The translations under genes were made by a program, and so were the position numbers. A model generated the notes under the pieces. That model was given only the letters and a program-made list of their open reading frames with translations. It ran no database searches and had not been told where the DNA came from. This document shows, piece after piece, positions 988 through 33,845 of a stretch of 64,000 nucleotides of DNA; the first letter of the stretch is position 1, and each line of letters opens with the position of its first letter. The DNA is from Gammaproteobacteria bacterium (GTDB lineage Bacteria; Pseudomonadota; Gammaproteobacteria; GCA-001735895): positions 1-64,000 of the forward strand of contig JAAEMR010000105.1 in NCBI GenBank assembly GCA_024225395.1, read 5' to 3'.

Positions 988-1500
988 CTAGACACCACCA
1001 GAGTGAACGACCTGGTAATATATTTTTTCTAATTCATTTTTATGTTCGGTTTCTTCATGGGCGAGGTAAGTGAATAAGTCTTTTATTGGACCGGCTCCTG
1101 CTTCTTCTGATAGGGATGTATATTGTTCCATAGCCGCCTGCTCTAGTGACAGGGCGTATTGTAGAATGGACTGATCATCAGGGCTTTCACCAAGGTCTTT
1201 TGCCTGAACTGCTTCTGAAAATCGGCCATTACTGGGGGGGGTCGTGATCATGTCTGATAACTGGCTTTCGATTTCTGGGTTGGCCAGTAAATTTGAAAAT
1301 AAATCAAAGTGCTGTTGTTCTTCTTCGGCCAGTTCTTCAACCAGGTAACGAATTTGTTTACTGACTTTTGGAATCAGGTCGGTGTAAAAGTCAAATGCTG
1401 TTTTCTCAAACTGAATAGCGACTTCAAGGATTTCACGCAGAGTGTTTTTGGATGCCAGTAAGTCTCGACTGCTGGTTTGATTTTCTGATTCTCTTCCCAT
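988..1500 (-). CDS. Rubrerythrin/ferritin-like di-iron protein
   Basis: A 170-residue four-helix-bundle protein. Two carboxylate-bridged iron half-sites are visible: EKTAFDFY with EEEQQH in the first half, and EQAAMEQY with HEETEH in the second. This is the ExxH pattern of the rubrerythrin/ferritin-like superfamily. There is no C-terminal rubredoxin CxxC domain, so it is not a classical rubrerythrin. Family members usually reduce peroxide or handle iron. It is the last gene of the mbx-like operon, 20 bp after the NuoI-GltD fusion gene, which suggests oxidative protection of an oxygen-sensitive Fe-S complex (inference). A run of eight G (1234-1241) lies inside the gene. Confidence 0.82.
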   Translation of the reverse strand: MGRESENQTSSRDLLASKNTLREILEVAIQFEKTAFDFYTDLIPKVSKQIRYLVEELAEEEQQHFDLFSNLLANPEIESQLSDMITTPPSNGRFSEAVQAKDLGESPDDQSILQYALSLEQAAMEQYTSLSEEAGAGPIKDLFTYLAHEETEHKNELEKIYYQVVHSGGV

Positions 1501-1520
1501 GCCTGTTTACCTGCTAGATT

Positions 1521-3374
1521 CTATTGAGTTTTAACTTTGAGTTGCTGCTCGATGCTTGCTGCAACTCTATGACCATCAGCAACTGCATGCACCACATCTG
1601 GGCCATTTACGCAGTCACCGGCTGACCATAACCAGTCTTCAGAAGTTTGCCCATTTTCATCTATTTGCAGTCGGCCACGATTCCACTCCAGCTGCTCGGT
1701 GAGTTCTTTACCCAGTAGAGAAGTATCAGCAAACTGACCAATTGCTTCTATGACGGCTTCACAGTTATGAACTACTTCCTGTTCTTCATCATATTGCGGA
1801 GCGAAACGATGTTGCTCATCGAAAATTGACGTGACTTTCCAGGTTTTCAGGCCTGTTAATTTACCGTCGTTATCTATTTCGCATCCCTGTGGTCCACAGC
1901 TATCTTTAATGACTATGCCTTCTTCCAGTGATTCCTTTATTTCTTCAGGATCAGCCATGAAATGCTGCTGCTCTTCCAGGGCTGTCAACGTGATTTGAAC
2001 TTTACCATACTGCTGTTTTTGTAAACGAGCCAGCGAACGTGCTATGTCCATGGCGACGTTACCGCCACCGATCACCGCGACACTGTGTGGCAGTTCAATC
2101 TCTTCTCCAGTGGATATTTTCTGTAATAAATCAACGGCGCGGTAAACATGACGATGATCAGAATTTTTAATTCGCGTCTGGCGACCTTGCGACAGGCCTA
2201 TAGCCAGAATAACGGCATCAAAGTTTTTACGTAGCGTGCTCATCCGTTTGTTTTTACCGATGATGCAGTTGTAGTGAATTTTGACTCCTAGCGATGTAAT
2301 AATGTCTATATCCTGCTGCAGCGTATCGAAAGGCAGACGATAATCGGGGATACCATAACGTGTCATGCCACCGGCGTGGGGCAGTGCTTCGAATACTTCA
2401 ACTTGATGACCGGAACGAACCAGATCGAAGGCAGCGGTTAGACCCGCAGGGCCTGCACCGATGATAGCGACCTTCTTGCCACTGGATTTAGCCGTGTTAC
2501 CTTCGTTAACAATTTCTTTGATACGTTCGTGGCTGACCGAATCCATCGCGTAACGTTTCAACCAGCGGATTGCTATGGGTTCACCACGAATACCGATGGA
2601 GCAGGCATCTTCACAGCGGTGGGTACAAACTCGACCACAGACATGTGCAAAAGGATTAGTTCGATAAATCTGGCGCACCGCTTCTTCAGCATCATTATTC
2701 CAGATGGCGCGAATGTATTCAGGCGCATGCATATTAGTAGGACAGGAGTCATGACACATGCCGCATTGCACACAGCGGGAAGCTTCCAGCACGGCCTGTT
2801 CAGGCGTAAAGCCATCGACGATTTCATCAAAATTATCGATTCTGTTTTCCGGCTCCAGTTCAGCCATGACGCTGCGTGTCAGACTGAGTAAATCGGAATG
2901 TTCAGTTTTTTGCCAGCCTTTGCCAAAATGCTCTTTATGTATGCCATTCGGGTCAGGCAGAATGAAATAACTGTCGATATGCTCCTGATCACAGGTATGC
3001 ACGTATTCACGTGATAAGGATAGTGAAGAACTGGGGCAGATATCGACACACAGCGCACACCAGCAGCAGCGACCGTAGTCGATGGCAGGGCGATGGTTGC
3101 GGATGCCTTTAACCGGATCATTCGGCAAGCCTGGAATTTCCACCATGGTTATCGCAGCGTTATCACAGATTTTCTGGCAACTTGCACAACCGACGCATTC
3201 TTCCCAGTCATTCAAGTGAAAGCCACGATAGTTCAGCGAAGCCAGCCTTGGTTTTAACGGTTCTGTAACCGGCTTACGCGCCAGAAATTGCAGGTTTTTA
3301 AGCGGGTTAAGCAATGAGCCGGAATCGCTGTGATCGATGACGGGTGCTTTTTTTGACTTCAGTTTCATTTTCAT
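1521..3374 (-). CDS. NuoI-like ferredoxin fused to GltD-type FAD/NAD(P)H oxidoreductase
   Basis: A 617-residue fusion. Residues 55-135 form a two-cluster ferredoxin (C60-C63-C66-C70 and C103-C106-C109-C113) followed by SREYVHT, which resembles the segment after the clusters in NuoI/MbhN. Residues 180-280 are the Cys-rich GltD N-domain (C201, C204, C207, C211; C246, C250, C254, C258). From 302 there is an FAD Rossmann fold (IIGAGPAG), then an NAD(P) fold (VIGGGNVAMD, about 436) and the closing SAGDCVNG FAD motif. It overlaps the NuoD-like stop by 4 bp and occupies the place of the final mbxN/nuoI-type gene. I infer that it passes electrons between NAD(P)H and the Fe-S chain of the membrane complex. 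A free-standing GltD-like enzyme is the alternative. Confidence 0.88.
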   Translation of the reverse strand: MKMKLKSKKAPVIDHSDSGSLLNPLKNLQFLARKPVTEPLKPRLASLNYRGFHLNDWEECVGCASCQKICDNAAITMVEIPGLPNDPVKGIRNHRPAIDYGRCCWCALCVDICPSSSLSLSREYVHTCDQEHIDSYFILPDPNGIHKEHFGKGWQKTEHSDLLSLTRSVMAELEPENRIDNFDEIVDGFTPEQAVLEASRCVQCGMCHDSCPTNMHAPEYIRAIWNNDAEEAVRQIYRTNPFAHVCGRVCTHRCEDACSIGIRGEPIAIRWLKRYAMDSVSHERIKEIVNEGNTAKSSGKKVAIIGAGPAGLTAAFDLVRSGHQVEVFEALPHAGGMTRYGIPDYRLPFDTLQQDIDIITSLGVKIHYNCIIGKNKRMSTLRKNFDAVILAIGLSQGRQTRIKNSDHRHVYRAVDLLQKISTGEEIELPHSVAVIGGGNVAMDIARSLARLQKQQYGKVQITLTALEEQQHFMADPEEIKESLEEGIVIKDSCGPQGCEIDNDGKLTGLKTWKVTSIFDEQHRFAPQYDEEQEVVHNCEAVIEAIGQFADTSLLGKELTEQLEWNRGRLQIDENGQTSEDWLWSAGDCVNGPDVVHAVADGHRVAASIEQQLKVKTQ

Positions 3375-4513
3375 CGATCGACCTCCGGAGGACAGGCATC
3401 CAGAGAAAACATGGTTTGAGCAACATCTTCAACACGACAGCCAACCGCTAGTTTTTCCAGCACCTGAACTGCATGCATGGCGGATGGTCCTCGAATATGA
3501 ACACGGTAGGGTTTATCACCACCGTTGGAAACGACGTAGTAAGCGAGTTCACCTTTGGATGACTCTACACGTGCGTAACTGTCTCCAGCAGGGACACGCC
3601 AGGCCAAAGGGTTTGGAATCGGGGTTCGAACGGGGCCTTTAATATCGGGTAAAGCTTTTATGACCTGACGAATGATGCTAATACTTTCAACCATTTCCAG
3701 GCGTCTAACCAGCGTACGTGCCCAGGCATCACCGCCATGTTCGGTAGGAATATCAAATTTAAGCTGGTCGTAAATCAAATAGGGATCATCGCGTCGCACA
3801 TCAAATTCGAGACCACAGGCACGCAGGTTAGGTCCGGTGACACTCCATTCGAGAGCCTGTTCCTGGCTAATAATACCGATGCCTTTTGCTCGTTTGACAA
3901 AAATTTGATTGGTGAAAAACAAATTGTCGTAATCTTTTAGGCGGCCTTCGATATAATCCAGTGTATCGCTCAATCGCTGCAGAAAACCTCGAGGAATATC
4001 CTGGCGTACTCCACCGGGCATATTGTAAATACTGTAAACTCGACCACCGGTTAATTCTTCGAATAAATCAAGTAACAGGTCACGATCGGCAACACCCCAG
4101 TACATGGGCGTGTACATACCGGTGGTTGCTGCATGGCCACCAAAGTAAAATAAATGCGCTGCAATACGGGATAGTTCGAGTTGTAACACGCGTAGCCACT
4201 GGGCTCTTTCCGGTAATTCGAGCCCTGCGAGTTCTTCGACGGCGAGTGAATAACACACTTCCATCGGTACAGGGTCGGGTACGCAGATGCGCGGAACCAG
4301 AGAGATATTCTGAATCCATAAACGATCTTCCATCAGTTTCTCGAAACCGCGATGCAGGTAACCGGCATCGGCTCGTGCTTCGACTACGGTATCGCCCTGT
4401 AGTTTTACTTTCAACGCATAGTTGCCTTCGATACCCGGATGATTGGGGCCAAAGTTGAGCTCGTATTCATTGCTTGGCGGATGGTTGACCGCCTGATAGT
4501 TTTCAGGTCTCAT
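3371..4513 (-). CDS. NuoD/MbxL-like catalytic subunit of Mrp-type respiratory complex
   Basis: 380 residues, homologous to complex I 49-kDa subunit NuoD and the group 4 [NiFe]-hydrogenase large subunit (FGPNHPGIEGNYAL and DAGYLHRGFEKL near the N-terminus). The metal site is altered. The hydrogenase RxCGxC motif reads RICVPD (C77 kept, second Cys replaced by D80), and the terminal DPCxxC reads DACPPE (C374 kept, second Cys replaced by E377). NiFe chemistry is therefore unlikely. NuoD has lost all four cysteines, so this is an intermediate pattern of the kind reported for MBX/MBS and other hydrogenase-related complexes. There is no hydrogenase-type C-terminal extension for protease processing: the protein ends three residues after E377. 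It overlaps nuoC-like and nuoI-gltD by a few bases. Confidence 0.9.
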   Translation of the reverse strand: MRPENYQAVNHPPSNEYELNFGPNHPGIEGNYALKVKLQGDTVVEARADAGYLHRGFEKLMEDRLWIQNISLVPRICVPDPVPMEVCYSLAVEELAGLELPERAQWLRVLQLELSRIAAHLFYFGGHAATTGMYTPMYWGVADRDLLLDLFEELTGGRVYSIYNMPGGVRQDIPRGFLQRLSDTLDYIEGRLKDYDNLFFTNQIFVKRAKGIGIISQEQALEWSVTGPNLRACGLEFDVRRDDPYLIYDQLKFDIPTEHGGDAWARTLVRRLEMVESISIIRQVIKALPDIKGPVRTPIPNPLAWRVPAGDSYARVESSKGELAYYVVSNGGDKPYRVHIRGPSAMHAVQVLEKLAVGCRVEDVAQTMFSLDACPPEVDR

Positions 4514-5076
4514 TATTTGTTATCCATCCTGATAGATTCAGGAGTACTCACGATGCCACCGCCCTGTTCTTCCAGGTCTTTCAACCAGTCCGGGTGATAT
4601 TCCTGCCAACTGAATGTTTCCATCACCCATTTTTCTGAATTAAAGTCTTTACGCATGGGTGGCGGGCCATTCCATTCGGTCAGAATGAACTTGCTCATGT
4701 CCGGGCTGCCTTCAAAGTAAACGCCAAACATTTCATGGATATCACGTTCAAAAAAAGCAGCAGGTGTGTAGATATCGAATACCGACAGGTAGATGCCGGG
4801 TTCACGCGGGATTCGTATGTGAGCTGAAATTAGCACGGAAGTTTCATAGGACCACAGGTGATAAACCAGCTCGAACTGGTTCTCTTCTATCCAGTCCACA
4901 CAGGATATGGCCGACAGGTGAACATAACTGGCTCGCCCTCGCAGTAATGCGAGTAAAGCGGGCAGGGCTTCGGCAGCAATATCGGCGCGTAAACGTCGTG
5001 GGTTATGATGTGTGAGATGTATGCCCTCAATTTCCTGTAACAGCACATTGAGATTTTGAGAATGAGCTGCACTCAT
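4513..5076 (-). CDS. NuoC/MbxK-like subunit
   Basis: A 187-residue homologue of the 30-kDa subunit of complex I. The C-terminal half holds the family block FFERDIHEMFGVYFEGSPDM followed by L(T)EWNGPPPMRKDF, matching the NuoC signature for ER-(E/D)-x2-(D/E)-(M/L)-(F/Y)-G and the PLRKDF-like end. It is a peripheral-arm scaffold that binds NuoD- and NuoB-type subunits and has no cofactor. Start and stop overlap both neighbours by 1-4 bp, indicating translational coupling. Confidence 0.9.
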   Translation of the reverse strand: MSAAHSQNLNVLLQEIEGIHLTHHNPRRLRADIAAEALPALLALLRGRASYVHLSAISCVDWIEENQFELVYHLWSYETSVLISAHIRIPREPGIYLSVFDIYTPAAFFERDIHEMFGVYFEGSPDMSKFILTEWNGPPPMRKDFNSEKWVMETFSWQEYHPDWLKDLEEQGGGIVSTPESIRMDNK

Positions 5077-5774
5077 AGTTTCATCTCCAGTGGTTCCAGT
5101 GGTCTTTGAACAGACTCAAGAATTTTAGTGTGTTCTCCCAAAGTATTCGGACCTTCTAATTGATAAGTCTTTGCTTCTCCAATAATATCGGTCGGTGTCT
5201 GCCAGTTATTTCCAAATAAATGCTGTTGATTGCCGAGATAATAATCGTAGTGTTCATAGTACTTTTTCCACGAGTTTGCTTCATCAGTTTTAATCTTTGC
5301 CATCAATTGTTGCAGACCTTCTATAACTGCTTCGGGCCTGGGCATACAGCCGGCAATGTATAAATCGACGGGGATGTATTCATCGAGTTTTTTAGCCGTG
5401 GCATAACTCTGCCAGTACATGCCGCCATTGACGGTGCAGGAACAGATTCCGATAACGTATTTGGGCGCACCCATTTGCTCATAAGTCAGTATGACCCGTT
5501 TTAGTGTTTTGATAGAAACATAACCGGTGATCAGCAGGATATCTGCCTGACGAGGTGTGACCATGGGCTGAATGCCAAGTCTTTCCATGTCGAATCGAGA
5601 TGTCATTGCCGGTGGTAATTCAATTGCGCCACAGCCAGTACAATAGTGCAGCATGAACATGGAACGGGATCGGCAAAAGCTGACCAGTTCATTAAATACA
5701 TTAGCGAATGGATTGCTACGCTTTGCTACCGGCTTCTGGTTTACTTCAATGTTAGAGAGGTCTGTATTACTCAT
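5073..5774 (-). CDS. NuoB/MbxJ-like [4Fe-4S] subunit
   Basis: A 233-residue small subunit carrying the proximal (N2-type) cluster. Ligand candidates are C45 and C48 (HYCTGCGAIE), C111 or C113 (IGICSCTVNGG) and C143 (AGCMPRPE). The SRFDMERLGI block after the first motif is NuoB-like. However, NuoB has two adjacent cysteines, while here they are spaced CxxC as in group 4 hydrogenase small subunits. The protein is thus between complex I and hydrogenase in type. It should be the last Fe-S centre before the NuoD-like site. It lies 25 bp after the NuoH-like gene. Confidence 0.92.
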   Translation of the reverse strand: MSNTDLSNIEVNQKPVAKRSNPFANVFNELVSFCRSRSMFMLHYCTGCGAIELPPAMTSRFDMERLGIQPMVTPRQADILLITGYVSIKTLKRVILTYEQMGAPKYVIGICSCTVNGGMYWQSYATAKKLDEYIPVDLYIAGCMPRPEAVIEGLQQLMAKIKTDEANSWKKYYEHYDYYLGNQQHLFGNNWQTPTDIIGEAKTYQLEGPNTLGEHTKILESVQRPLEPLEMKL

Positions 5775-5799
5775 TAGGTTTTCTCATCGATTGGCTTCA

Positions 5800-6708
5800 T
5801 TAATTCATCACAAATGCGATGCCGATCAGTGCCAGCATGACAGGCCACTTCCATACCAGACGAACCAGGTCATCGGTGCGATAACGAGGGAACAGGTAAG
5901 CGATAACAACGGGAATGGCCAGCACTCCAAAACTCTTCAGCAAGAAGGTGATCCAGTTTTCGCCACCTCCGAGGAATAGTGAAACGTAAAGAACGCTGGC
6001 AGTGTAGAGTTGAAAACTTTGCATCACGAACAGTCCACCCAGAAACTTTCCACCCATTTCGACCATAGGGCCAGTGGCTATTTCTGCTGGTGCGATATAA
6101 ATTTCAAAAGGTTGTTTGCCGAGCGATGCATGCATCGCAAATAAACCGGCAACAGCAAGTACTGGCATTTCACTGATACCCCAGGTGCTGAATCCACCGG
6201 CTTGCTGGGTAGCGATAATGTCGACCAGATTGGTGCTGCTGAATTGATAAGCAACACCAAATATAACGATGATAAAAGGAATATCGTAAGCCAGCATAGA
6301 TGTCAGTGCACGAGAGATACCAATTGAACCATTCGGGTTAGCACATTGGCCAACACCGAGTGCCAGACCAAGGGAAGGCACCATGGTCAGATATGCCAGT
6401 GTGATCAATCCACCTTTTGCAGCGATCCCATCCATGCCTGGAACCGGAAGTAAGGCTTCGGCAGCGACGTAACCACCAACGGCCATGATAATGCCAATAT
6501 CGTGGATCATACCGTGTGATATTTGAGTCTGTTTGCCATACAGTTTAACGATGTCAAACAGTGGTTGAAACAGGGGGGGGCCGACTCGTCGCTGTAATCT
6601 GGCCGCAAGCTTGCGCATCATCAAAACCATGAACAGGCCTATGATAAAAGCCACAATGGGCATCAATATGACTTCCATGATGGTAAGTAATGTAACTTGC
6701 ATTTCCAT
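5800..6708 (-). CDS. NuoH/MbxM-like membrane anchor subunit
   Basis: 302 residues, about eight membrane helices, NuoH family. Typical blocks are RRVGPPLFQPLFDIVKLYGK (loop facing the peripheral arm), ALTSMLAYDIPFII and the acidic E-rich PFEIYIAPAEIATGPMVEMGG loop. The subunit links the Fe-S arm to the ion-pumping arm. A run of eight G (6573-6580, eight C on the coding strand) encodes Gly-Pro-Pro in the first of these loops and is a potential slippage site. The gene begins immediately after the stop of the second antiporter-like gene. Confidence 0.92.
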   Translation of the reverse strand: MEMQVTLLTIMEVILMPIVAFIIGLFMVLMMRKLAARLQRRVGPPLFQPLFDIVKLYGKQTQISHGMIHDIGIIMAVGGYVAAEALLPVPGMDGIAAKGGLITLAYLTMVPSLGLALGVGQCANPNGSIGISRALTSMLAYDIPFIIVIFGVAYQFSSTNLVDIIATQQAGGFSTWGISEMPVLAVAGLFAMHASLGKQPFEIYIAPAEIATGPMVEMGGKFLGGLFVMQSFQLYTASVLYVSLFLGGGENWITFLLKSFGVLAIPVVIAYLFPRYRTDDLVRLVWKWPVMLALIGIAFVMN

Positions 6709-8583
6709 CTAGCCTATAAAAAAATAAAGTGAAAGTGTTGCTGTAATCAATAAAAACAGTGCCGGATGATAACTGTGGAAAAGGATCTGTGTTAAACCAC
6801 TTAACAGGCTGACTATTGATATCAGAGACGATTCGAGCCACTTAAATGTACCTCGATACCAACCACCTATGTGGTGCATCAGACCGGCATAAAAATTATT
6901 ACTGTAATGGTAGCGAGTATCTGCTGTGAGGAAATGTCCGCCTGCATAATTATCCAGTTGATGTACTCGTTTAGCCTTGTTTCCACCTCCATAAAACAAC
7001 AGGGCTCCAACACCAAACCCGCCGAACAAAACACCGCATAACCAGATCATATCAAGACTTCCCCTGGCTGTTTCAACACCACCCAGCGTATATGCCAGTG
7101 GCGTAAATCCTAATGCTGCCTGAGCCGAAGCGACCCAGTCGAGTACCAGTCCCGGCATAAAACCGGTGATGAAAATAATGGTTGCAACGACTAACATGGG
7201 TGCCAGCATGCTCCAGGGGACTTCACGAATATGTTCATGCTCAAGGCGTAACTGGCCCAGAAAAGTGTTATGAATTAATTTGTAAACTGAAAGAATGGTC
7301 CCCAGAGTGCCAATGACGGTGGCAACAAATAGCAAAGGCATGCCTTCTATGATTAACGAGCGATAAATGAGCCATTTGGATACAAAACCATTCATTGGTG
7401 GAATGCCTGCCAGACCAATAATGCCGACCAGTAATACTAGAAAAGTAAGCGGCATACGGTTAACCAGGCCACCCAGACGGTTCAGATCAGCGGTATGTGT
7501 GCGATAGACGACGGCGGTAATGGCAAGAAATAAAGCCGCCTGATTGGTGGCATAATTGAATACATGTAATAAACCACCAGCACTACCAACAGGATCAAGT
7601 AGCAATAGCCCCATCATCATATAACCACCCTGACCGATGCCGTGCCAGGCCAGTAAATATCTTGCATCATTTTGGCGCAATGCGGTATAGGTTGGAAAAA
7701 TAATGGTAAATGCTGCTACCCACATCAGCAGGTCACGCAAAGATAAAAAGGTAAAAGGAATTTCTACGGCTATCATCTTTCCCAGACCGATAAGCTGGAA
7801 TACAACGATCAGCATGGCATACAACCCCATGCGCGAAGAGATAGCACCAAGAAAAGCAGAACCGGGACCAGGTGTTTCTGCATAAGCGCCTGCCTGCCAT
7901 AAATGAAATGGCAATAAGCCCATTTTGACACCAAAGCCAGCGATGAAAAGCAGGCTGAGCACAACGACATGTGTGGTACTGAATGTTGATGCTGCCGCCG
8001 CTAGGTCGGCATAGGCGAAAGAACCGGTTAAGTGGTAAATAATACCGATGCCTGCCAGTATCGACATTGCGCCAGCCGTTGCATAAACGATATAACGTAA
8101 TCCCCATTGGGTGGCTATTCCTCCAGCCAGAACCATCAATAACAGACTGGCCCAGCTGACCAGTTCCCAACCGATAAATAAGGATAGTAAATCGCCACTG
8201 GCCAGTAATACCAGCATGGTAAAAACATTGAGCGACATGGCGAACTGTAATAACCCGGGATTGCCACCGTGCTTTTTATATTTTTTAGCCCATATTCCTG
8301 CTGCGAAAAATGAGCTGGCCATGGCTGCACCGATAGTGATCAGAGCAAAAAACCAGGAAAGTCCGTCAAAGCGCCAGCTAAGGGGTTGACCAAGAATGGT
8401 CAGGTTGACTGCAGACTCGATGACTGTGCCCCCATAACCCAGGCTGCTGATGCTTAATAAAGCAAGAAACTGAACGGTCAATAAGATAGCAGTAGCCCAG
8501 CCGATCAGCTGATGTCGTCGGCCAAGTCCTGAAATCAGGGCGGTTATCAAAGAGATTAGTAGTAAGGTATCAAGCTGATTCAT
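6709..8583 (-). CDS. Second antiporter-like subunit (NuoL/NuoM/MbxH'-type)
   Basis: 624 residues with about 14 to 16 hydrophobic helices and the proton-conducting membrane transporter fold shared by NuoL/M/N and MrpA/D. Recognisable blocks are GDLLSLFIGWELVSWASLLL, the histidine-containing GLLPFHLWQAGAYAETPGPGSAFLG, and LAGIPPMNGFVSKW. In the loop after the Pro-rich segment the usual K is not obvious (SSRMGLYAML), while the neighbour at 8580 reads SKLAVL. Having two such subunits, as in MBX, differs from single-antiporter MBH hydrogenases. It overlaps the upstream antiporter-like gene by 4 bp. Confidence 0.88.
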   Translation of the reverse strand: MNQLDTLLLISLITALISGLGRRHQLIGWATAILLTVQFLALLSISSLGYGGTVIESAVNLTILGQPLSWRFDGLSWFFALITIGAAMASSFFAAGIWAKKYKKHGGNPGLLQFAMSLNVFTMLVLLASGDLLSLFIGWELVSWASLLLMVLAGGIATQWGLRYIVYATAGAMSILAGIGIIYHLTGSFAYADLAAAASTFSTTHVVVLSLLFIAGFGVKMGLLPFHLWQAGAYAETPGPGSAFLGAISSRMGLYAMLIVVFQLIGLGKMIAVEIPFTFLSLRDLLMWVAAFTIIFPTYTALRQNDARYLLAWHGIGQGGYMMMGLLLLDPVGSAGGLLHVFNYATNQAALFLAITAVVYRTHTADLNRLGGLVNRMPLTFLVLLVGIIGLAGIPPMNGFVSKWLIYRSLIIEGMPLLFVATVIGTLGTILSVYKLIHNTFLGQLRLEHEHIREVPWSMLAPMLVVATIIFITGFMPGLVLDWVASAQAALGFTPLAYTLGGVETARGSLDMIWLCGVLFGGFGVGALLFYGGGNKAKRVHQLDNYAGGHFLTADTRYHYSNNFYAGLMHHIGGWYRGTFKWLESSLISIVSLLSGLTQILFHSYHPALFLLITATLSLYFFIG

Positions 8584-10076
8584 TGAACTTTACTCTGTTG
8601 TTTGATGAGGCTGATTTGTTTTCTCACCGGAGTGTGCCTGGCTGCAAATGTGGTGTTAATGTACAAAGCCCTGTCGCTACTTTCTGCAGCGATATGTTGA
8701 AGTTTGTTGCCTAATGGCGCCATGGTAATCAGGGCCGTAATCAGGACAACGGCGAACACCGAAATAATGGTTAAAGTAAACGGCGTTTGATGTAATTTTT
8801 TGACCTGTTTCTTTTTACCTTTGGAATACATCCGGATAGCCGTGTGCATCAGATAATGTGCTTCAATAACGGTAGCACTTAATAGAACGGCCAGAGCAGT
8901 AAGATACAGCGGTGTATTGGCTTCAACCAGACCGGTTACCAGTAATAATTTTGCCCAGAAACCGGGGAAAGGAGGCACGCCAATCAGTGACAATGCAAAT
9001 AACATAAATAAAACAGCCGCTAAAGGTGAACTTTTTGCTGCACCGGCCAGTTTGTTTAACGATCCATTCCAGTGTTCAGTGAGCATGAATAAACCGGGTT
9101 TAACCACAAGATGATGTAACATCATAGCGATACCTGCGACCATGCCTGCTTCGCCGGGGATAGAAAAAGCCACCAGTACCATGCCCAGTTGTCCGATAGA
9201 TGAAAATGAAAGCATGCGTTTCAGGTCTTTCGAGCGCCAGGCAGACAATTCACCCCAGATGATACCGAGCATACCCAGTACCAGTAATAAGGTTAAAGCT
9301 TCGGGTCCCTGATAGGCCACTACCAGTAGCCTGACAATAACCAGAACCGCCAGTTTTGAAATGAGTCCTGCGAGTAAGGCACTGATACGGGGGCTGGCGG
9401 TAGAATAAACTTCTGGAACCCAGCCGTTTACTGGAAAGATTTCAGCTTTGACACCAATTCCGATAACGATTAGAGCAAATGCCGACAGTCCAGCAGGGTT
9501 ATTAAGCTGTGAAGCCAGCAAACCTATATGAGCTAAATTGAGTGTGCCGGTCTGGGTGTATATAAGACCGATACCGGTTAAAGCCAAAACCGTGCCCAGT
9601 CCACTCATGACCAGGTAACGAAAAGTGGCTGCAAAAGCAGCACCTGTACGATTGGCTGCAGCGAGTCCAAAGGAAGCAACAGAAAGTAGTTCATAGAAAA
9701 CGTAGATGTTAAACAGGTCACCGGATAAAGCCAGTCCACTCGCTGAACCGGCCAGCAGTAATAACAAAGATTCTTCACGATAGCCTTCTATGTTGGCGTA
9801 GGGCCATAGCACTAACATGATTAACGGAATAATGCTGGCCATTAATAATGAAAGATTATCCAGATGAAATGTTATGCCAAGCGGTGGACGGAACCCACCC
9901 AGGGCAATGGCTACAGGATGTTCCAGCATATTAAAGTAAGCCAGTGAGAACCCAAGCATTGCCAGCAGAACGAAGGGGCCGATAAAGCGAGCCGCTGACT
10001 TTGAGCTATTACTTATGATGGGTAGTAGAAATGCAGCGAGCAAAGGTAGCGCGACAGTGAAAGCAATGTTATTCAT
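8580..10076 (-). CDS. mrpD: MrpD/MbxH-like antiporter subunit
   Basis: A 498-residue MrpD/NuoN-type membrane protein with about 14 helices. Visible motifs are SGDLFNIYVFYELLSVASFGL (helix with the conserved Glu), VNGWVPEVYSTASPRISALLAGLISKLAVL (broken helix with the conserved Lys) and GVPPFPGFWAKL. In Mrp systems and MBX this subunit carries a Na+/H+ translocation path. It overlaps the MrpC-like gene by 4 bp. Confidence 0.9.
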   Translation of the reverse strand: MNNIAFTVALPLLAAFLLPIISNSSKSAARFIGPFVLLAMLGFSLAYFNMLEHPVAIALGGFRPPLGITFHLDNLSLLMASIIPLIMLVLWPYANIEGYREESLLLLLAGSASGLALSGDLFNIYVFYELLSVASFGLAAANRTGAAFAATFRYLVMSGLGTVLALTGIGLIYTQTGTLNLAHIGLLASQLNNPAGLSAFALIVIGIGVKAEIFPVNGWVPEVYSTASPRISALLAGLISKLAVLVIVRLLVVAYQGPEALTLLLVLGMLGIIWGELSAWRSKDLKRMLSFSSIGQLGMVLVAFSIPGEAGMVAGIAMMLHHLVVKPGLFMLTEHWNGSLNKLAGAAKSSPLAAVLFMLFALSLIGVPPFPGFWAKLLLVTGLVEANTPLYLTALAVLLSATVIEAHYLMHTAIRMYSKGKKKQVKKLHQTPFTLTIISVFAVVLITALITMAPLGNKLQHIAAESSDRALYINTTFAARHTPVRKQISLIKQQSKVQ

Positions 10077-10558
10077 TTGTCACCGCCCTGATTTAGCTGA
10101 GCAGTTTCATGTTGTGCTGATGGCTCAGGCAGAGGGCGTTCACCCGCAGGTTGCTCGCTGCTTAACAGAGAAATCACGCCGCTACTGTTGTCGATGTCAG
10201 TCGATAGTTGTTGGTGAATTTCACCTATATCGAGAGTTTTGTAGTTTTGATAAACTTTAACAACCAACGCCAGCGCCAGAGCCTGAATACCGACACCGAT
10301 GACAATAGAAGTTAATACCATAGCCTGTGGAACGGGATCGACCATCAACTGGTTAGCTGATGATCCAGTTAAAATGGGCGCAATTGCATCGAAGCGATAA
10401 CCGGCAATCACCAGTAACAGGTTAGCTCCCGCTTCAGCGATGGCCAGAGCCAGGACGATGCGGAAGATATTGTTCAGTGTAACCACTCCGACAATACCTA
10501 TAACGATTAAACCCATAGCTCCGCCGTAGAGTAACCAGTGAATCAGGTCTGTAGTCAT
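10073..10558 (-). CDS. mrpC: MrpC/NuoK-like subunit
   Basis: 161 residues. The first about 100 form three membrane helices of the MrpC/NuoK fold (GGAMGLIVIGIVGVVTLNN..., AGANLLLV, DPVPQAMVLTSIVIGVGIQALALALVVKVY). The DPVPQAMVLTSIVIG block is diagnostic of MrpC. A hydrophilic tail of about 50 residues follows with no recognised domain. It overlaps both neighbouring genes by 4 bp. Confidence 0.9.
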   Translation of the reverse strand: MTTDLIHWLLYGGAMGLIVIGIVGVVTLNNIFRIVLALAIAEAGANLLLVIAGYRFDAIAPILTGSSANQLMVDPVPQAMVLTSIVIGVGIQALALALVVKVYQNYKTLDIGEIHQQLSTDIDNSSGVISLLSSEQPAGERPLPEPSAQHETAQLNQGGDK

Positions 10559-11313
10559 GATCCGTTACTCTCCGTTTGCATTGATGATGCCTGTAGATCA
10601 GTTGATTCCGGCACTATTTCACCAATCTCTGCTAAATTAGCCAGTAAGCCAGAAAGTTCTGCGCCCACTTTCAAACCAACAGCGGTGTAAAGTAATGGCA
10701 ATGTACCGGCTGAAACTAGTGACCCCATTTCCCCGTGACCAAAGAAAGGCTGTAGAAAAGCATTGCCCTGGAATAACGCGATAATGCCAATTATGATGAA
10801 TGATGCGCCGGCAAAACCTTCGACCAGAGCAAGACCGCTGTGATTGACCCCGCGTCCGGGTACTGCTAGCAGGGGTAGAAAGAAGGCTGCTGCCAGGATA
10901 ACACCGCCCTGGAAACCACCGCCCGGTGTTAAATGGCCGTGTAGAATAATGTACATACCCAGGGTGATGAGTAGAGGGAAAAACAAACTGGCACTACTGG
11001 CCAGGATAGTGCCGTCATCTCTGATGACTACCTTTTTGCTGGAAGATGTTTTAGCAGATAATGAGCTTAAAACCAGTGACGTTGCGGTAGATGCGGTAAA
11101 AAGAATGGCAATTTCTCCCAGAGTATCTATACCCCTGTAACCCAGAACCACTGAAGTGACCAGGTTTGCACTACCGATTTTGTCGGCTCCCTGTTGTAAT
11201 ATTGCTTCACCGATTAACATCGGAGCACCACCAACCACGAATTGCCAGGTGATGACCAGCAGTAAAAAGGCAAGGCCTGAAGCAAAAACTAAAGCACTGA
11301 CATTACGCATCAT
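10555..11313 (-). CDS. mrpB: MrpB-type subunit with MbhE-like N-terminal half (MbxF-like)
   Basis: 252 residues. The N-terminal part ends in NLVTSVVLGYRGIDTLGEIAILFTA, the hallmark of MbhE or the C-terminal part of MrpA. The C-terminal half is the MnhB/MrpB domain with ILHGHLTPGGGFQGGVILAAAF. MbhE-like and MrpB-like modules are therefore joined in one polypeptide. Four to six helices in total. It overlaps the MbhD-like gene by 11 bp. Confidence 0.85.
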   Translation of the reverse strand: MMRNVSALVFASGLAFLLLVITWQFVVGGAPMLIGEAILQQGADKIGSANLVTSVVLGYRGIDTLGEIAILFTASTATSLVLSSLSAKTSSSKKVVIRDDGTILASSASLFFPLLITLGMYIILHGHLTPGGGFQGGVILAAAFFLPLLAVPGRGVNHSGLALVEGFAGASFIIIGIIALFQGNAFLQPFFGHGEMGSLVSAGTLPLLYTAVGLKVGAELSGLLANLAEIGEIVPESTDLQASSMQTESNGS

Positions 11314-11569
11314 TTTGCTCCGACGGTTGTTTACCGTGCTTTTTATTAATTCGGAATAAAGCCAGTGCCAGAATAACAGTGCTTAAACCAGAACCAACTA
11401 CGGCTTCGGTCATCGCTACATCAGGAGCTTGCAGGATGACGAATAATACCGACAGGGCGAGTGATACTGCCGATGTGGCTGCAATGGCAGAGACATGGCT
11501 CTCTACAAATAAAACGGTGATAGCCCCGGCTAACATTATGATAACCATCAATGCGATAACCCAGATCAT
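11303..11569 (-). CDS. MbhD/DUF4040-like membrane subunit
   Basis: 88 residues with three hydrophobic helices. The block FVILQAPDVAMTEAVVGSGLSTVI matches the QAPDVAxTEAxVG signature of the MbhD/DUF4040 part of MrpA. With the MbhE-like half of the next gene it reconstitutes what is the C-terminal region of MrpA in Bacillus-type antiporters. It overlaps mrpG by 4 bp. Confidence 0.85.
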   Translation of the reverse strand: MIWVIALMVIIMLAGAITVLFVESHVSAIAATSAVSLALSVLFVILQAPDVAMTEAVVGSGLSTVILALALFRINKKHGKQPSEQNDA

Positions 11570-11895
11570 GATTTTTCACCAGAGGTGTTTAATGGTTTCT
11601 GCTGTCTGGAAGGTTTAACCCAGGGTTTAATACCTGACAGGTACACAGCGCGGGAAAGCACAGAAGAGCTGACCGGGCTGGTAAATAATAGAAAGCCGAT
11701 AATGCAGAGTAACTTTGTCCACCAGTCAGGGTAAAGTAGACCCACGCCTAAAATGATCGCTATTGAACCTAATGTTGCCGCCTTGGTGCCTGCTTGAATT
11801 CGGTTGTAAATATCGGGCATACGAATCAGCCCCAATGCGCCTAAAAAGCAAAATATTGCCCCTAGAAGCAGTATGACATCGGCAATAAGTCTCAT
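11566..11895 (-). CDS. mrpG: MrpG subunit
   Basis: 109 residues and three helices. The block LGLIRMPDIYNRIQAGTKAATLGSIAIILGVGL is the classical MrpG/MnhG signature (RxPDxYxRxHAxTKxxTLG, with Gln in place of the usual His). The C-terminal tail is polar. Overlaps with mrpF and the MbhD-like gene indicate translational coupling. Confidence 0.92.
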   Translation of the reverse strand: MRLIADVILLLGAIFCFLGALGLIRMPDIYNRIQAGTKAATLGSIAIILGVGLLYPDWWTKLLCIIGFLLFTSPVSSSVLSRAVYLSGIKPWVKPSRQQKPLNTSGEKS

Positions 11896-12158
11896 GATTT
11901 TCCTCCCTCAATAACTCGGGAGATTGCAATTATTCCGATAAAGGAGATAGCGCCATAAACCAGTGCTACATCGAGAAAAAGAGCACTATTAAAATAGGCT
12001 GCAAATACGGTCAGTCCGGCTGTAATAATGACAGACATGGTGTCAGCACTGATAACCCGGTCAGGAGCATCAGGTCCGATAATGAGTCGAATGAGACCCA
12101 GTAGCAAGGCGGCTCCGATAAAGCCAGCCGCAATTTGTTCCAGCAGGTTAAAGGTCAC
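11892..12158 (-). CDS. mrpF: MrpF subunit
   Basis: 88 residues and three helices. The central block RLIIGPDAPDRVISADTMSVIITAGL is the MrpF/MnhF signature (GPxxxDRVxAxD). It overlaps both flanking genes by 4 bp. Confidence 0.92.
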   Translation of the reverse strand: MTFNLLEQIAAGFIGAALLLGLIRLIIGPDAPDRVISADTMSVIITAGLTVFAAYFNSALFLDVALVYGAISFIGIIAISRVIEGGKS

Positions 12159-12664
12159 TTGAGGAATCCTGAAATATGTTTTTCGAAGCCGGTGGCTATA
12201 TCTTTAGTTGCCTGTTCCAGGCTAATACCTTCGGGGGCGGCTATCCAGTGTACTAATATTTTGTTATGCCTTAACTCGACAGCTAAAGTGCCCGGTGTCA
12301 GAGTGATGCTATTCGCCAGCAGCATCTGGCCAAGCCTGGATTCAAGTTTTGTTTCGATTTCGAGCAGATCAGGACTGATGGGTAAGGAAGGAGAAAGAAC
12401 CCGTCGAGCCATGTCCAAATTAGCTTTAATCAGTGCAATAAAAAAATAGCCCAGATAGGTAAGTAATGAAACTATTGCGGTCGGAGTGTATCGAATTCCA
12501 TCAAAAATATTGATATAGGGAGCAGAGATCATTGAAACCACGGCTGCAACGATGACACCTGCAATCAGTTCATCCAGCGCCACAGAACCTGTTAATAAAA
12601 TCCATAGCAACAGCATGGTCGCGAATAGAAAAAGATGGTGATGTAAATTGAGACGGTTAAGCAT
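12155..12664 (-). CDS. mrpE: MrpE subunit, first gene of the mbx-like operon
   Basis: 169 residues: two N-terminal hydrophobic helices (LFLFATMLLLWILLTGS), a third (LGYFFIALIKANLDMARRVLSP) and a cytoplasmic domain with the family block ANSITLTPGTLAVEL. This is the MrpE/MnhE fold. It opens a run of 14 minus-strand genes to 988 with overlaps or gaps of at most 25 bp. A possible FNR-type promoter lies about 90-130 bp upstream. Confidence 0.9.
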   Translation of the reverse strand: MLNRLNLHHHLFLFATMLLLWILLTGSVALDELIAGVIVAAVVSMISAPYINIFDGIRYTPTAIVSLLTYLGYFFIALIKANLDMARRVLSPSLPISPDLLEIETKLESRLGQMLLANSITLTPGTLAVELRHNKILVHWIAAPEGISLEQATKDIATGFEKHISGFLK

Positions 12665-16915: not shown

Positions 16916-18562
16916 TTAGATTTCTTCAGCAATCATTGTAATTGCACCACAGGGGCATTCTGCCTCACACATGCCACAGCCTTTACAGTAGTCATATTTG
17001 AATTCAAAACCTTTTCCAACACCCAGTTTAGTGATGGCATTGTCCGGACAAATTCCATAGCAGTTATCACATTCAAAACAGTTGCCACAGGACATACAGC
17101 GCCTGGCTTCAAATTTGGCACTGTCCAGATCCAGGTCACCCACGACTTCTGAAAAACCGCTTTTGCGTCTGACGGATTCCAGGTAGGGTTGAACGGTTCT
17201 CGGAGCATCACTGTAGTACCAGGGTTCCATTTTATCGAAACTGGCGACTTCATTCTGTGGGACGGGCTGCCAGGTTTGGTCATGTAACCAGGCATTGATG
17301 GTTCTGGCTGCTTTTTTACCGTGACCCAGAGCAGTGGTAACCGATCGTTGAGAGGGTACTGCATCACCGGCTGCGAAAATGCCTTGCTGAGCCGTTTGCA
17401 TAATTTCGTCTATCTGTATGCTGTTGTTTTCAAAGTTAATCTGCGGGTTATTGTTTAATATCTGCGCATCCACCAACTGACCAATGGCGAGCACGACCAC
17501 ATCGGCTTCTATGGTTTCATGTTCGCCTGTTTCTACGACTCTGGCTCTGCCAGAATAATATTCTTCACTGGCCTTCAATAGTTCGAGAGTAATTTGATTG
17601 CCATTGATTGCTTTAATGGAGCGTAAACTGAGAATACTGGTGCCTTCTTCCAATGCTTCTTTTATTTCAAACTGGTGAGCTGACATATTATCCTGTTCGT
17701 AGCGACTAACCACGACGACATCCTGCGCACCCATGCGAACAGCGGTTCGAGCAACGTCCATAGCCGAGTTACCACCACCATAGACTACAACCCTGCCAAT
17801 TAACTGGTTACGCTTTTCTTCTTCGGTATCGCGTAATACTTTCAAGGCATCAAGAACAGGAATAGTGGATTCACCTTCAAATTCTATATGATTGGATTTT
17901 TGCGCGCCGATACTGATTAAAACCGCGTTAAAGTTACCTTCTTCACGAGTTTTATCAATATCGTTGATGCGATGCCTGAATTTGAATTCCACACCCATTT
18001 GTTCAATACGATAAATTTCGGCATTGAGTTTTTCTCTCGGAAGGCGATATTTTGGAATGCCATAACGCAACATGCCGCCGGGTTTTTCTGATGCTTCGAA
18101 AACAGTGACCTGATGCCCGAACAAACGCAAATGATAGGCAGCAGCTAATCCGGCAGGGCCAGCGCCGATAATCATTACTTTTTTACCCGTGTCTGCGCCA
18201 GCGGTAAATTGCCAGTTGTTCACCAGACCCTGTTCACCGATAAAACGTTCAACGGAGTTAATGCCGACGGGTAGATCGAGCTCACCACGATTGCATATAT
18301 TTTCACAGGGGTGGTAGCAAACCCGTCCCATAATGGCAGGGAAGGGATTATCTTTAGTGAGTAATTCCCAGGCGGCTTTATAATTTTCTTCTTCGGTCAG
18401 GCTTAACCAGCCCTGGATATTTTCTCCACAGGGGCAGGCCTTATTGCAAGGTGGCATGCGGTTCACATACAGTGGCTTCATGCTACGCCAGCTACCGGTT
18501 TTATTCAGGTGGCTGGTACCTACATCCAGGGTGATGGCAAAGGGTTTATTTTGTTCAGTCAT
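16916..18562 (-). CDS. GltD-type FAD/NAD(P)H oxidoreductase with C-terminal ferredoxin (PorD-like)
   Basis: 548 residues. The Cys-rich GltD N-domain comes first (PPCNKACPCGENIQG, then CYHPCENICNRGELD), then FAD motif IIGAGPAGLAAAYHL, GGMLRYGIPKYRLP, NAD(P) motif VYGGGNSAMDVARTA and FAAGDAVPSQRSV. The last 60 residues form a dicluster ferredoxin (CMSCGNCFECDNCYGICP and CKGCGMCEAECPCGAI) like the POR delta subunit. It is the last gene of the por operon, 9 bp after porB, so it probably couples ferredoxin/POR electrons to NAD(P)(H). The domain order is the reverse of the paralogue at 1521, where the ferredoxin is N-terminal. Confidence 0.9.
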   Translation of the reverse strand: MTEQNKPFAITLDVGTSHLNKTGSWRSMKPLYVNRMPPCNKACPCGENIQGWLSLTEEENYKAAWELLTKDNPFPAIMGRVCYHPCENICNRGELDLPVGINSVERFIGEQGLVNNWQFTAGADTGKKVMIIGAGPAGLAAAYHLRLFGHQVTVFEASEKPGGMLRYGIPKYRLPREKLNAEIYRIEQMGVEFKFRHRINDIDKTREEGNFNAVLISIGAQKSNHIEFEGESTIPVLDALKVLRDTEEEKRNQLIGRVVVYGGGNSAMDVARTAVRMGAQDVVVVSRYEQDNMSAHQFEIKEALEEGTSILSLRSIKAINGNQITLELLKASEEYYSGRARVVETGEHETIEADVVVLAIGQLVDAQILNNNPQINFENNSIQIDEIMQTAQQGIFAAGDAVPSQRSVTTALGHGKKAARTINAWLHDQTWQPVPQNEVASFDKMEPWYYSDAPRTVQPYLESVRRKSGFSEVVGDLDLDSAKFEARRCMSCGNCFECDNCYGICPDNAITKLGVGKGFEFKYDYCKGCGMCEAECPCGAITMIAEEI

Positions 18563-18571
18563 GATGTGTCC

Positions 18572-19570
18572 CTAAAGCAGGTTGTAGCGTTTGATGTTTC
18601 TTTTGGCCAGCGCTCGAATAGAGGCCAGCTGGTGCTGATTCGCCGGTTTCAAGATATGTGAATAACGACGTTGTAATTGCAGGTAATCCTCTACCGGTAT
18701 TCGATAACGTATTTTTGTGGAGTCGGTTAAATCACCATTTTCTGCTTCAAATAATGGAATCAGGCCACACTCAACACCCATGCGAGCCAGCTTAATGGTT
18801 AGCGCCGGTTCACTGCCCCAGCCAAGAGGGCAGGGCACATTAATTTGAATGTAGCGTGCTCCACGATAAGTCATTGCCTTTTCAACTTTACGCTCAAGGT
18901 CGTGTAAGTCATGAACTGAAGCGGTAGCGACATAAGGAATTTCATGTGCCATTGCGATGGCAGGTAAAAATTTACCCGTATTAAATGAGCTGCCGGGGTT
19001 ATCACCTACCGGCATGGTGGTGGATGTTCTGGCACCGCCAGGTGTAGCACTGGATCGCTGCACGCCGGTATTCATGTATCCGCCGTTGTCATAACAGATA
19101 TAAAGTACATCATCGTTGCGATCGAACATGCCGGACAGCGTAGCAAAACCGATATCGGTCGACCCTCCGTCACCGCCCTGGGCTATGACCCGGGTTTCTG
19201 TATCGCCCTTGGCTTTAAGCGAAGCGGCAATGCCCGAGGCGACCGAAGCGACATTACCAAATAAAGAATGTATCCACGGAATGTTCCAGGCAGTTTCCGG
19301 GTAAGGGGTGGTAAAAACTTCCAGGCAACCGGTTGCATTTGCGGCGATGATTTTATTGTTTGAAGCTCGCATTGCGGCATCCAGCGCATAACGTGCACCC
19401 AGTGCCTGACCACAACCCTGACATGCCCGATGACCGGAATCTATGGTGTTGCAACGTTCCTGAGTGGCCTGAACGGTACGGAAATCTTCTTCTAATAAAC
19501 GGTTACCGACGGTGAAAGTTCCGGTTTGATAAAACTTTACCGTTTGATGGTTGGAATCCTGTTTAGCCAT
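18572..19570 (-). CDS. porB: Pyruvate:ferredoxin oxidoreductase beta subunit (TPP-binding)
   Basis: 332 residues. The TPP/Mg2+ block is GGDGGSTDIGFATLSG followed by DNGGYMNTGVQRS, and the substrate-side block is TGCLEVFTTPYPETAW. [4Fe-4S] ligands are likely CQGCG near residue 53, the TGC and VPCPLGW. The TTPYPETAWNIPW and MNTGVQRSSATP blocks fit pyruvate rather than 2-oxoglutarate enzymes. It works with PorA and PorG to interconvert pyruvate + CoA and acetyl-CoA + CO2 with ferredoxin as electron carrier. Confidence 0.92.
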   Translation of the reverse strand: MAKQDSNHQTVKFYQTGTFTVGNRLLEEDFRTVQATQERCNTIDSGHRACQGCGQALGARYALDAAMRASNNKIIAANATGCLEVFTTPYPETAWNIPWIHSLFGNVASVASGIAASLKAKGDTETRVIAQGGDGGSTDIGFATLSGMFDRNDDVLYICYDNGGYMNTGVQRSSATPGGARTSTTMPVGDNPGSSFNTGKFLPAIAMAHEIPYVATASVHDLHDLERKVEKAMTYRGARYIQINVPCPLGWGSEPALTIKLARMGVECGLIPLFEAENGDLTDSTKIRYRIPVEDYLQLQRRYSHILKPANQHQLASIRALAKRNIKRYNLL

Positions 19571-19605
19571 TTTTATAACTCTTTCATTGTCGTATTAGGA
19601 TAGCT

Positions 19606-20862
19606 TTAATGTGTTTTAGATGCGGAAACCACACCCATGTCGCGTAGAATATTTTCAGCGGTTGATCCCGATGATGGCTCTGTTTGCTGTCGTTTTATTT
19701 CCTTCTCTACCGTTTCAAGATCCAGATCCATAAAGGTTTCATGTTCCAGTTCACCTTTTTTTGCCATTTCAACAATTTTCTTCAGTGATTTAACGGTTAT
19801 GGTTCGACCACCCAGGCCTCCAATGATGGAGTTGATTTTTATGTGTAAACCATGGGTTGCCATGTGAACTTCACTGGCCAGAATGCCACCCATACCGACC
19901 GCAAAACTTTTTTCAAATACGATAATCTGTTGTGCCGATTTTAATGCGTTGCGTATGGCTTTAATCGGAAAAGGTCGAAAAGAACGTAGGCTCAAGATGC
20001 CGATTGACTGTCCCTGTTCACGTAACTCTGATGTTAATGCCTGTAAGGTTCCAACGACAGAACCCATGGCGACAAAAACGATATCAGAGTTTTCAGCATC
20101 GTAAGATTTAACCAGTCCACCAGAATCTCGATCGAATATCTTTTCAAACTGTTTAGCCTGTTTTTCGATTACGGTTAGTGCCTGTTGCTGTTTTTCATGC
20201 GCCAGGTAACGTACTTCGGTAAAGGCGTCAGGGCCGACCATCGCGCCTATGGTTAAAGCTGCCGAAGTGTCGAGTAATTGACGTGGAACAAAGGAGGGCA
20301 AAAACTCATCGACCTGTTGTTGATCGGGCATATCAACACGAGTGATTGCATGGGTCAGGATAAATCCATCCATGTTGACCATCACCGGCAGGCTCAAAGC
20401 CTCGGCCAGTTTAAATGCCTGAATATGCACATCGATAGCCTGCTGATTATTCTCTACAAACAACTGTATCCAGCCGGCATCACGCACCGACATGGCATCG
20501 GAATGATCATTCCAGATATTGATCGGCGCACCGATGGCTCTGTTTCCCAATGTCATGACGATAGGTAGCCCCAGGCCGGATGCGTTATAAACGGCTTCCA
20601 TCATATATAACAAACCCTGACTGGCGGTTGCGGTATAGCTGCGAGCACCGGCAGCTGAAGAGCCGATGCAAACACTCATGGCAGCAAATTCTGATTCTAC
20701 ATTCTCGTAGGTACATTTTTTTAATTCGCCACTTTTTACCAGCGTACTAAGGTGTTCAACAATGTGTGTTTGTGGCGTTATCGGGTAACAAGGCACCACT
20801 TCGGGTCGGCACAGGGCAACGGCTTTGGCAACGGCTATGGAGCCACTAATTTGCATTAACAT
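19606..20862 (-). CDS. porA: Pyruvate:ferredoxin oxidoreductase alpha subunit
   Basis: 418 residues. The N-terminal pyrimidine-binding domain has AVALCRPEVVPCYPITPQTHIVE and SEFAAMSVCIGSSAAGARSYTATASQGLLYMMEA. The central domain III starts near residue 265 (DIVFVAMGSVVGTL) and contains SLRSFRPFPIKAI, and FEKSFAVGMGG precedes the glycine-rich GGLGGRTIT. Typical of four-subunit POR alpha chains. It starts 2 bp after porG. Confidence 0.92.
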   Translation of the reverse strand: MLMQISGSIAVAKAVALCRPEVVPCYPITPQTHIVEHLSTLVKSGELKKCTYENVESEFAAMSVCIGSSAAGARSYTATASQGLLYMMEAVYNASGLGLPIVMTLGNRAIGAPINIWNDHSDAMSVRDAGWIQLFVENNQQAIDVHIQAFKLAEALSLPVMVNMDGFILTHAITRVDMPDQQQVDEFLPSFVPRQLLDTSAALTIGAMVGPDAFTEVRYLAHEKQQQALTVIEKQAKQFEKIFDRDSGGLVKSYDAENSDIVFVAMGSVVGTLQALTSELREQGQSIGILSLRSFRPFPIKAIRNALKSAQQIIVFEKSFAVGMGGILASEVHMATHGLHIKINSIIGGLGGRTITVKSLKKIVEMAKKGELEHETFMDLDLETVEKEIKRQQTEPSSGSTAENILRDMGVVSASKTH

Positions 20863-20864
20863 GT

Positions 20865-22178: not shown

Positions 22179-22304
22179 GTTTGAAATTTTATTGCTGGGG
22201 AAACTTGAACTACTGGCATTCGATAATCTGGAATTATTATTAAATATATCATGGGTATAATCCTCGACAATAACCACATTACTATAAAATCTAAGGGTGC
22301 TGGT

Positions 22305-24269: not shown

Positions 24270-24299
24270 GGCAGTATGCACAACAGCAGCGGTGAGGTT

Positions 24300-33740: not shown

Positions 33741-33751
33741 AAGAATATTTA

Positions 33752-33845
33752 TTCACTACAGAGCACACAGAGACTTAACTGGGTAGTGCATAAAATACTT
33801 ACATTCTTTAGCTCAGTGTCCCTCTGAGTCCTCTGAGGTGCAAAA
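33752..33845. repeat. Inverted-repeat element A (CACAGAG-type), 5' side of the radical SAM gene
   Basis: Imperfect terminal inverted repeats, about 24-33 bp (left about 33752-33775, right about 33811-33845), built from CACAGAG/CTCTGAG-like units. They are the same kind as element B at 36171-36296. Together they flank the USP-PCP_red gene. They are reminiscent of dispersed, non-coding CACAGAGGACACAGAG elements seen in many proteobacteria. Confidence 0.6.

Follow-up and report, generated by a model that had tools for sequence, protein, structure and literature searches.

An MBS/MBX-type respiratory operon with a GltD-extended MbxN subunit in rDsr-carrying sulfur oxidisers

In the MBS complex of Pyrococcus furiosus, sulfane reduction has been tied to a proximal [4Fe-4S] cluster for which MbsJ supplies just three cysteine ligands, MbsJ C25 and MbsL C85 and C385 being dispensable and the quinone residues lost (PMC7684303). 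A fusion of MbhE and MbhF has been described as the hallmark of its subunit MbsE (PMC8415708). MBX complexes are also known from bacteria, both from Thermotoga, where mbxA expression rises with sulfur (PMC9431562), and from strain 3DAC (PMC10356935). Here, an operon of this kind is analysed in a stretch of 64,000 nucleotides from a gammaproteobacterium (hereafter the window; GenBank assembly GCA_024225395.1, contig JAAEMR010000105.1, positions 1 to 64,000, forward strand). The operon is assigned to the MBS/MBX-type respiratory complexes, and neither to ordinary complex I nor to the [NiFe] hydrogenases; its MbxN subunit is fused to a GltD/NfnB-type flavoprotein module, and its last gene encodes a ferritin-like protein. 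We propose, with a probability of about 0.5, that the product is an NAD(H)-linked, ion-translocating sulfane-sulfur oxidoreductase that would mostly run uphill, yielding NADH from reduced sulfur.

When subunits B, E/F, G, H, H', M, J and L were each searched against all Protein Data Bank (PDB) sequences, the top match was the P. furiosus MBS (6u8y) in all eight cases. The score of MbxL was 400 bits with MBS (6u8y_L), 270 bits with Thermus Nqo4 and 131 bits with MBH (6cfw_L). In an MbxL tree, complex I and three types of Mbx protein (A, to which the window complex belongs, B and C) formed separate groups, and P. furiosus MbsL (PfMbsL) fell on the Mbx side, split from complex I with 100/100 support, this single archaeal reference lying on a long branch and the branching inside the Mbx side not being settled. 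The ordinary NuoD of the same genome (contig C66) grouped with complex I.

The operon comprises 14 intact open reading frames (ORFs), all on the minus strand and running from 12664 to 988, whose neighbours either overlap by 1-11 bp or are separated by 0-25 bp; the Mbx-type genes are the 13 coupled ORFs from 12664 to 1521. Their order, A-B-C-D-E(F)-G-H-H'-M-J-K-L-N, including the MbhE+MbhF fusion, is that of the P. furiosus MBS (mbx/mbs) and is kept in more than 20 independent loci, which excludes chance. Among conserved neighbours outside the 14 genes, none was common to more than 5 of the 29 loci compared, and the operon is therefore self-contained. Pfam and NCBIfam calls follow the same order. 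The Mrp-like genes are mbxA (MrpE-like, 12155..12664, MNHE 4e-35), mbxB (MrpF-like, 11892..12158, MrpF, top PDB match 6u8y_B), mbxC (MrpG-like, 11566..11895, MnhG, Pfam PhaG_MnhG), mbxD (MbhD-like, 11303..11569, MbhD 6e-19), the fused mbxE/F (MbhE plus MnhB/MbhF, as in MbsE, 10555..11313; Pfam MnhB and MbhE; 152 bits with 6u8y_E, 54 with 6cfw_F) and mbxG (MrpC-like, 10073..10558, Oxidored_q2, top PDB match 6u8y_G). They are followed by two Proton_antipo_M genes, mbxH (MrpD-like antiporter subunit, 8580..10076, 226 bits with 6u8y_H, next 151) and mbxH' (second antiporter-like subunit with a C-terminal extension, 6709..8583, residues 2-599 aligned to 2-591 of 6u8y_X), and by the NuoH-like membrane anchor gene mbxM (5800..6708, NADHdh, 183 bits with 6u8y_M, next 67). 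The remaining genes are mbxJ (NuoB-like, 5073..5774, Oxidored_q6, 222 bits with 6u8y_J, next 123), mbxK (NuoC-like, 4513..5076, Complex1_30kDa 4e-26), mbxL (NuoD-like, 3371..4513, Complex1_49kDa), mbxN-gltD (1521..3374, NuoI-like ferredoxin) and a rubrerythrin/ferritin-like gene (988..1500).

A sequence-only reading of this DNA had proposed a complete Mrp-complex I hybrid operon in mbx order, and the 13 intact ORFs, their Pfam names and their P. furiosus MBS order bear this out. It had also described MbhE and MrpB as one gene, which Pfam recovers as fused MbhE+MnhB with 6u8y_E as top match; two antiporter-like subunits, of which H aligns with MbsH and H' with MbsH'; and a degenerate NiFe site, where indeed two of the four hydrogenase cysteines remain in MbxL, as in P. 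furiosus MbsL. Its choice of an MBX-type complex over a hydrogenase agrees with the 6u8y matches, the tree and the missing NiFe ligands, and the NuoD tree it had suggested as a check places MbxL outside ordinary complex I (100/100) and with PfMbsL. Two details required revision. The interval 988-12664, presented as a 13-gene operon, does contain the 13 Mbx genes, but holds 14 in all, the ferritin-like gene having gone unnamed; and the last gene, called nuoI, has a NuoI-like part, but encodes a 617-amino-acid fusion with a GltD/NfnB-like FAD-NAD(P)H domain.

In the alignment, MbxJ keeps the MbsJ proximal-cluster motif (C25-x-x-C28, C93, C123) as conserved CTGC, SC and AGC, the first within YCTGCG as in MbsJ, and MbxL keeps both residual MbsL cysteines (C85, C385) in RICVP and DACPP. 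The positions of the Nqo4 quinone residues are changed in MbxL (H38 to E, Y87 to V), so that the H/Y pair is missing, whereas the genome's own NuoD has H and Y at the matching motifs. A three-cysteine proximal site of MBS type is thus predicted in the window complex. Type B loci (L010, L011, L013-L016 and L063-L066) are informative here, as their MbxJ reads GTGC, i.e., without C25, and the type B members in the alignment carry tyrosine at the C385 position. This natural loss of cysteines found dispensable by mutagenesis provides independent support for the three-cysteine site. The predicted site points to sulfane sulfur as the redox partner, leaving less open the electron acceptor that the sequence-only reading had called unknown.

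A distinctive feature is the MbxN-GltD fusion. Residues ~20-130 match NuoI and MbsN, providing a NuoI-type 2x[4Fe-4S] ferredoxin, while residues ~165-615 form a GltD/NfnB-type module with two more iron-sulfur clusters, FAD and a nucleotide-binding Rossmann domain with an intact motif. The protein matched NCBIfam PRK13984 over its full length (E=1.3e-237), with a score of 790 bits, below the 946-bit cut-off. In the PDB search, 6u8y_N was the sole NuoI-type match, over the N-terminal part, and AlphaFold modelled the GltD half well. All 16 cluster cysteines were invariant in 27 fusion sequences. A contig scan with the fusion as query gave matches from Pseudomonadota only, while a single genome exceeded the PRK13984 cut-off among 14 controls, which included T. 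maritima. TM1217 of T. maritima is probably such a fusion gene; in the literature searched on TM1217 and MbxN/MbsN the fusion is undescribed. The fusion is probably older than the Proteobacteria and likely occurs in T. maritima too.

Nucleotide preference can be approached through DsrL, since DsrL-2 enzymes use NADP(H) and have a YRR motif in the nucleotide domain, while the DsrL-1 enzymes found in sulfur oxidisers favour NAD(H) (PMC7596348). Types A and B lack YRR and have TALE-type residues there (TALEEQQ), and because the motif is absent in type A the window complex is predicted to use NAD(H). YRR was found in type C only (loci L054 and L055, genomes G233 and G264), whose complex is for this reason probably NADP(H)-linked; its MbxN-GltD is only ~40% identical, and its H-H' ORF is fused. 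MbxH and MbxH' are fused in type B as well, as one protein of ~1050 amino acids. Between J and K, type B loci have a gap in which no clear ORF for an additional gene was seen, with tandem repeats in L013.

The ferritin-like gene (rubrerythrin-type, without rubredoxin domain; Pfam Rubrerythrin 9e-16) follows mbxN in almost every locus that is complete enough, and went undetected in L012, L054 and L067, loci that are either short or divergent. Its six expected diiron ligands (E32, E61, H64, E120, E150, H153) are invariant in 26 sequences. The protein would probably clear O2 or peroxide that could otherwise destroy the open cluster.

In the membrane arm, type A MbxH keeps E138, K250 and K393 of MbsH, and type A MbxH' keeps E128, K217 and K399 of MbsH'. 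MbxH' aligns with MbsH' from residue 2 to 599, including the region of the C-terminal extension with transmembrane helices 15-16 (TM15-16). Ion pumping by this arm is therefore plausible. As a separate observation, mbxH' and the end of mbxH (about 6700-9200) share only 72-82% identity with the close relative SI039_bin4 (L008), whereas the figure is mostly 88-94% for the genes upstream and mostly 84-90% for those downstream; this segment is either recombined or fast-evolving.

The complex marks rDsr sulfur oxidisers. Among 369 genomes sampled across the class Gammaproteobacteria, 17 had the fusion protein, and dsrA was present in 17/17 carriers versus 118/369 overall (P=1.7e-9; by genus 15/15 versus 87/271, P=1.6e-8); in a second set, 398 genomes from across the phylum, five more carriers were found, with dsrA in 5/5 versus 52/397 (P=3e-5), these tests treating as independent genomes that are not fully so. 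The association with RuBisCO was weak (14/17 class carriers, P=0.003 versus the whole class). Canonical NuoD was detected in 22/22 carriers, and the complex is therefore no substitute for complex I; an RnfC homologue was detected in 18 of the 20 carriers tested. The genome under study has its dsrA on another contig (C199) and also contains [NiFe] hydrogenase large-subunit genes.

Our proposal takes subunit identity, gene order, the fusion, the cluster ligands, the MBS-type site and rDsr co-occurrence from sequence, and from these we infer NAD preference, direction, coupling ion and the role of the ferritin-like protein. The ferredoxin-docking subunit, extended by an NAD(P)H flavoprotein, would exchange electrons between NAD(H) and sulfane sulfur (polysulfide or persulfide), coupled to H+ or Na+ movement. 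Electrons would pass between NAD(H), FAD, the two GltD-type clusters, the two NuoI-type clusters and the site-differentiated proximal cluster of MbxJ, the path ending at sulfane sulfur in a pocket between MbxJ, MbxL and MbxM, with conformational coupling to MbxH, MbxH' and the Mrp module. The NAD(P)H/ferredoxin-linked or sulfur-related role suggested earlier from the letters is supported in outline, as NAD(P)H-linked sulfur chemistry, but was incomplete, the NAD(P)H module being a covalent part of the complex. Concerning direction, the potentials of NAD (about -320/-280 mV) and polysulfide (about -260 mV) are similar, and forward pumping is therefore barely possible unless sulfide is very low, while gradient-driven reduction of NAD+ is easy. 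The missing YRR and the link to rDsr also favour the uphill direction. Inward ion flow would then drive electrons from reduced sulfur to NAD+, and the NADH needed to fix CO2 would cost less than by way of reversed complex I. More tentatively, at somewhat under even odds, we suggest the complete scenario in which the ion gradient pushes electrons from sulfide, polysulfide or persulfide straight to NAD+, bypassing quinone and complex I, while the operon's own diiron protein shields the complex from oxygen.

Several observations weigh against this proposal. In the AlphaFold model of the fusion, the NuoI half had low confidence, and the likeness of the proximal site to MBS is one of sequence. H330 of MbsH is replaced in all type A proteins and K248 of MbsH' is an arginine in type A; with one antiporter histidine lost and one lysine changed, pumping stoichiometry may differ. 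To our knowledge, no MBS has been shown to work in reverse, and the P. furiosus MBS reduces polysulfide with ferredoxin (PMC7684303). Furthermore, the only expression evidence on direction points the other way: in the Riftia symbiont, Mrp-Mbx genes are co-expressed with the reductive tricarboxylic acid (rTCA) cycle, and not with Calvin-cycle genes or the bulk of those for sulfur oxidation (PMC11636981). This pattern is not what a simple sulfide-to-NADH role in Calvin-cycle growth would lead one to expect.

The same enzyme might instead run forward, oxidising NADH and reducing stored or environmental polysulfide to sulfide, either with little energy conserved or for redox balance under anoxia. 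This is the characterised direction of MBS, with ferredoxin in Pyrococcus (PMC7684303); Thermotoga mbxA is induced by sulfur (PMC9431562), the products of the genome's [NiFe] hydrogenase genes could feed NADH, and in the Riftia symbiont the Mrp-Mbx genes cluster with rTCA genes, as do those for sulfur-globule proteins (PMC11636981). Nevertheless, forward operation appears doubtful, given the strict tie to oxidative rDsr genomes, the absence from types A and B of the NADP(H) motif of reductive DsrL and, on the standard potentials, the near lack of pumping energy from NADH unless sulfide is very low. It is improbable that the complex acts as an ion-coupled ferredoxin:NAD(P)+ oxidoreductase, with ferredoxin docking at MbxN and the sulfur site unused. 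MbxN does retain ferredoxin-type clusters, the GltD/NfnB domain handles electrons between ferredoxin and NADPH in Nfn, and such a function was an older proposal for the Pyrococcus MBX (in PMC6349859); yet the RnfC homologues suggest that Rnf already does that job in most carriers, the open MBS-type site would be conserved though useless, and the strict dsrA link would be left unexplained. Still fainter is the prospect of an alternative quinone-reducing complex I with another NAD(P)H input module: overall homology to complex I and a hydrophobic chamber expected to be conserved speak for it, but the quinone-head residues kept in the genome's true NuoD are replaced, MbxL groups with MBS, and every carrier tested has a canonical NuoD. 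The ligands, the scores and the tree led to the rejection of ordinary complex I itself. A group 4 [NiFe] hydrogenase (MBH/Ech type), to which MbxL retains distant homology (131 bits with MBH versus 400 with MBS), was refuted, two of the four NiFe cysteines being absent and two antiporter-like subunits being present instead of one.

Other features of the window lie outside the operon. On the minus strand at 16916-21446, 4 kb from it, PorC-PorA-PorB encode a 2-oxoacid (pyruvate-type) oxidoreductase (POR), after which comes a second GltD-like flavoprotein that ends in a two-cluster ferredoxin (PRK12771), likely together an NAD(P)-linked POR. A Calvin-cycle cluster at 46887-55423 holds the RuBisCO large subunit, CbbQ, a VWA-domain protein (CbbO-like), aldolase and a divergent CbbR-like regulator. 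Plus-strand genes encode a 672-amino-acid MtrC/cytochrome c7-like multihaem protein followed by a dihaem-type cytochrome c (22251-25052), and a cytochrome bd oxidase I-like protein with a protein joining cytochrome c and ethylbenzene-dehydrogenase-like domains (40257-45441). PCP_red (protochlorophyllide reductase 57 kD) domains occur in two minus-strand products, a radical SAM/SPASM protein and a universal stress protein (32466-36005), phototrophy not being known for this genome, and a further minus-strand gene encodes a protein with a PEP-CTERM sorting signal (70-663).

For sulfur-oxidising autotrophs, including animal symbionts, reversed complex I has usually been the only answer to how NADH is obtained from donors of similar potential. 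An NAD-linked MBS confined to organisms with rDsr provides an alternative that can be tested and, if the uphill proposal is true, a dedicated low-cost enzyme for reverse electron transport. With it, the MBS branch in the evolution of complex I would reach beyond hot anaerobes to common bacteria exposed to oxygen. The sequence-only reading had set against itself an operon that proves widespread and already characterised, and this holds in part: the operon is widespread among rDsr oxidisers (the 17/369 carriers above) and bacterial MBX had been reported before, but the NAD-linked form is without biochemical study in the literature searched; in that literature, which left out most subscription journals, the NAD-linked fusion, the ferritin-like partner, the restriction to rDsr organisms and the subtypes are likewise undescribed.

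Among known systems, DsrL shares with the fusion a GltD/Nfn-type flavoprotein that moves electrons between sulfur metabolism and NAD(P), its NAD-linked forms also being without YRR. However, DsrL is a soluble partner of DsrAB with a C-terminal ferredoxin and is not membrane-coupled, whereas the fusion has ferredoxin-GltD order, no C-terminal ferredoxin and no adjoining dsrA. NfnB/NfnL has the same fold and cofactor set as the C-terminal half of MbxN-GltD, but bifurcates with NfnS, has YRR and is not fused to NuoI. The 'putative Mrp-Mbx complex' of the Riftia symbiont Endoriftia (PMC11636981), a gammaproteobacterial sulfur oxidiser, probably belongs to the same operon family; the accessible text of that co-expression study only names it and contains no analysis of subunits, fusion or mechanism. 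The 13-subunit MBX of Thermotoga maritima (PMC9431562) is likewise encoded by a bacterial, sulfur-responsive operon, but in a thermophilic fermenter with a presumed ferredoxin donor and no reported link to rDsr or a ferritin-like gene. The closest counterpart is the P. furiosus MBS/MBX (6u8y), which shares the gene order, the MbhE+F fusion, the H/H' pair, the CTGC of MbxJ, the two MbxL cysteines and the lack of quinone residues. Its MbsN, a chain of 208 amino acids in 6u8y, corresponds to no more than the NuoI part of the fusion, and its published donor is ferredoxin, whereas in the window MbxN is instead fused to an NAD(P)H flavoprotein, which suggests a partner other than ferredoxin. Compared with P. 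furiosus, moreover, the window operon adds the ferritin-like gene, and its hosts possess rDsr together with an ordinary complex I and, in many cases, RuBisCO.

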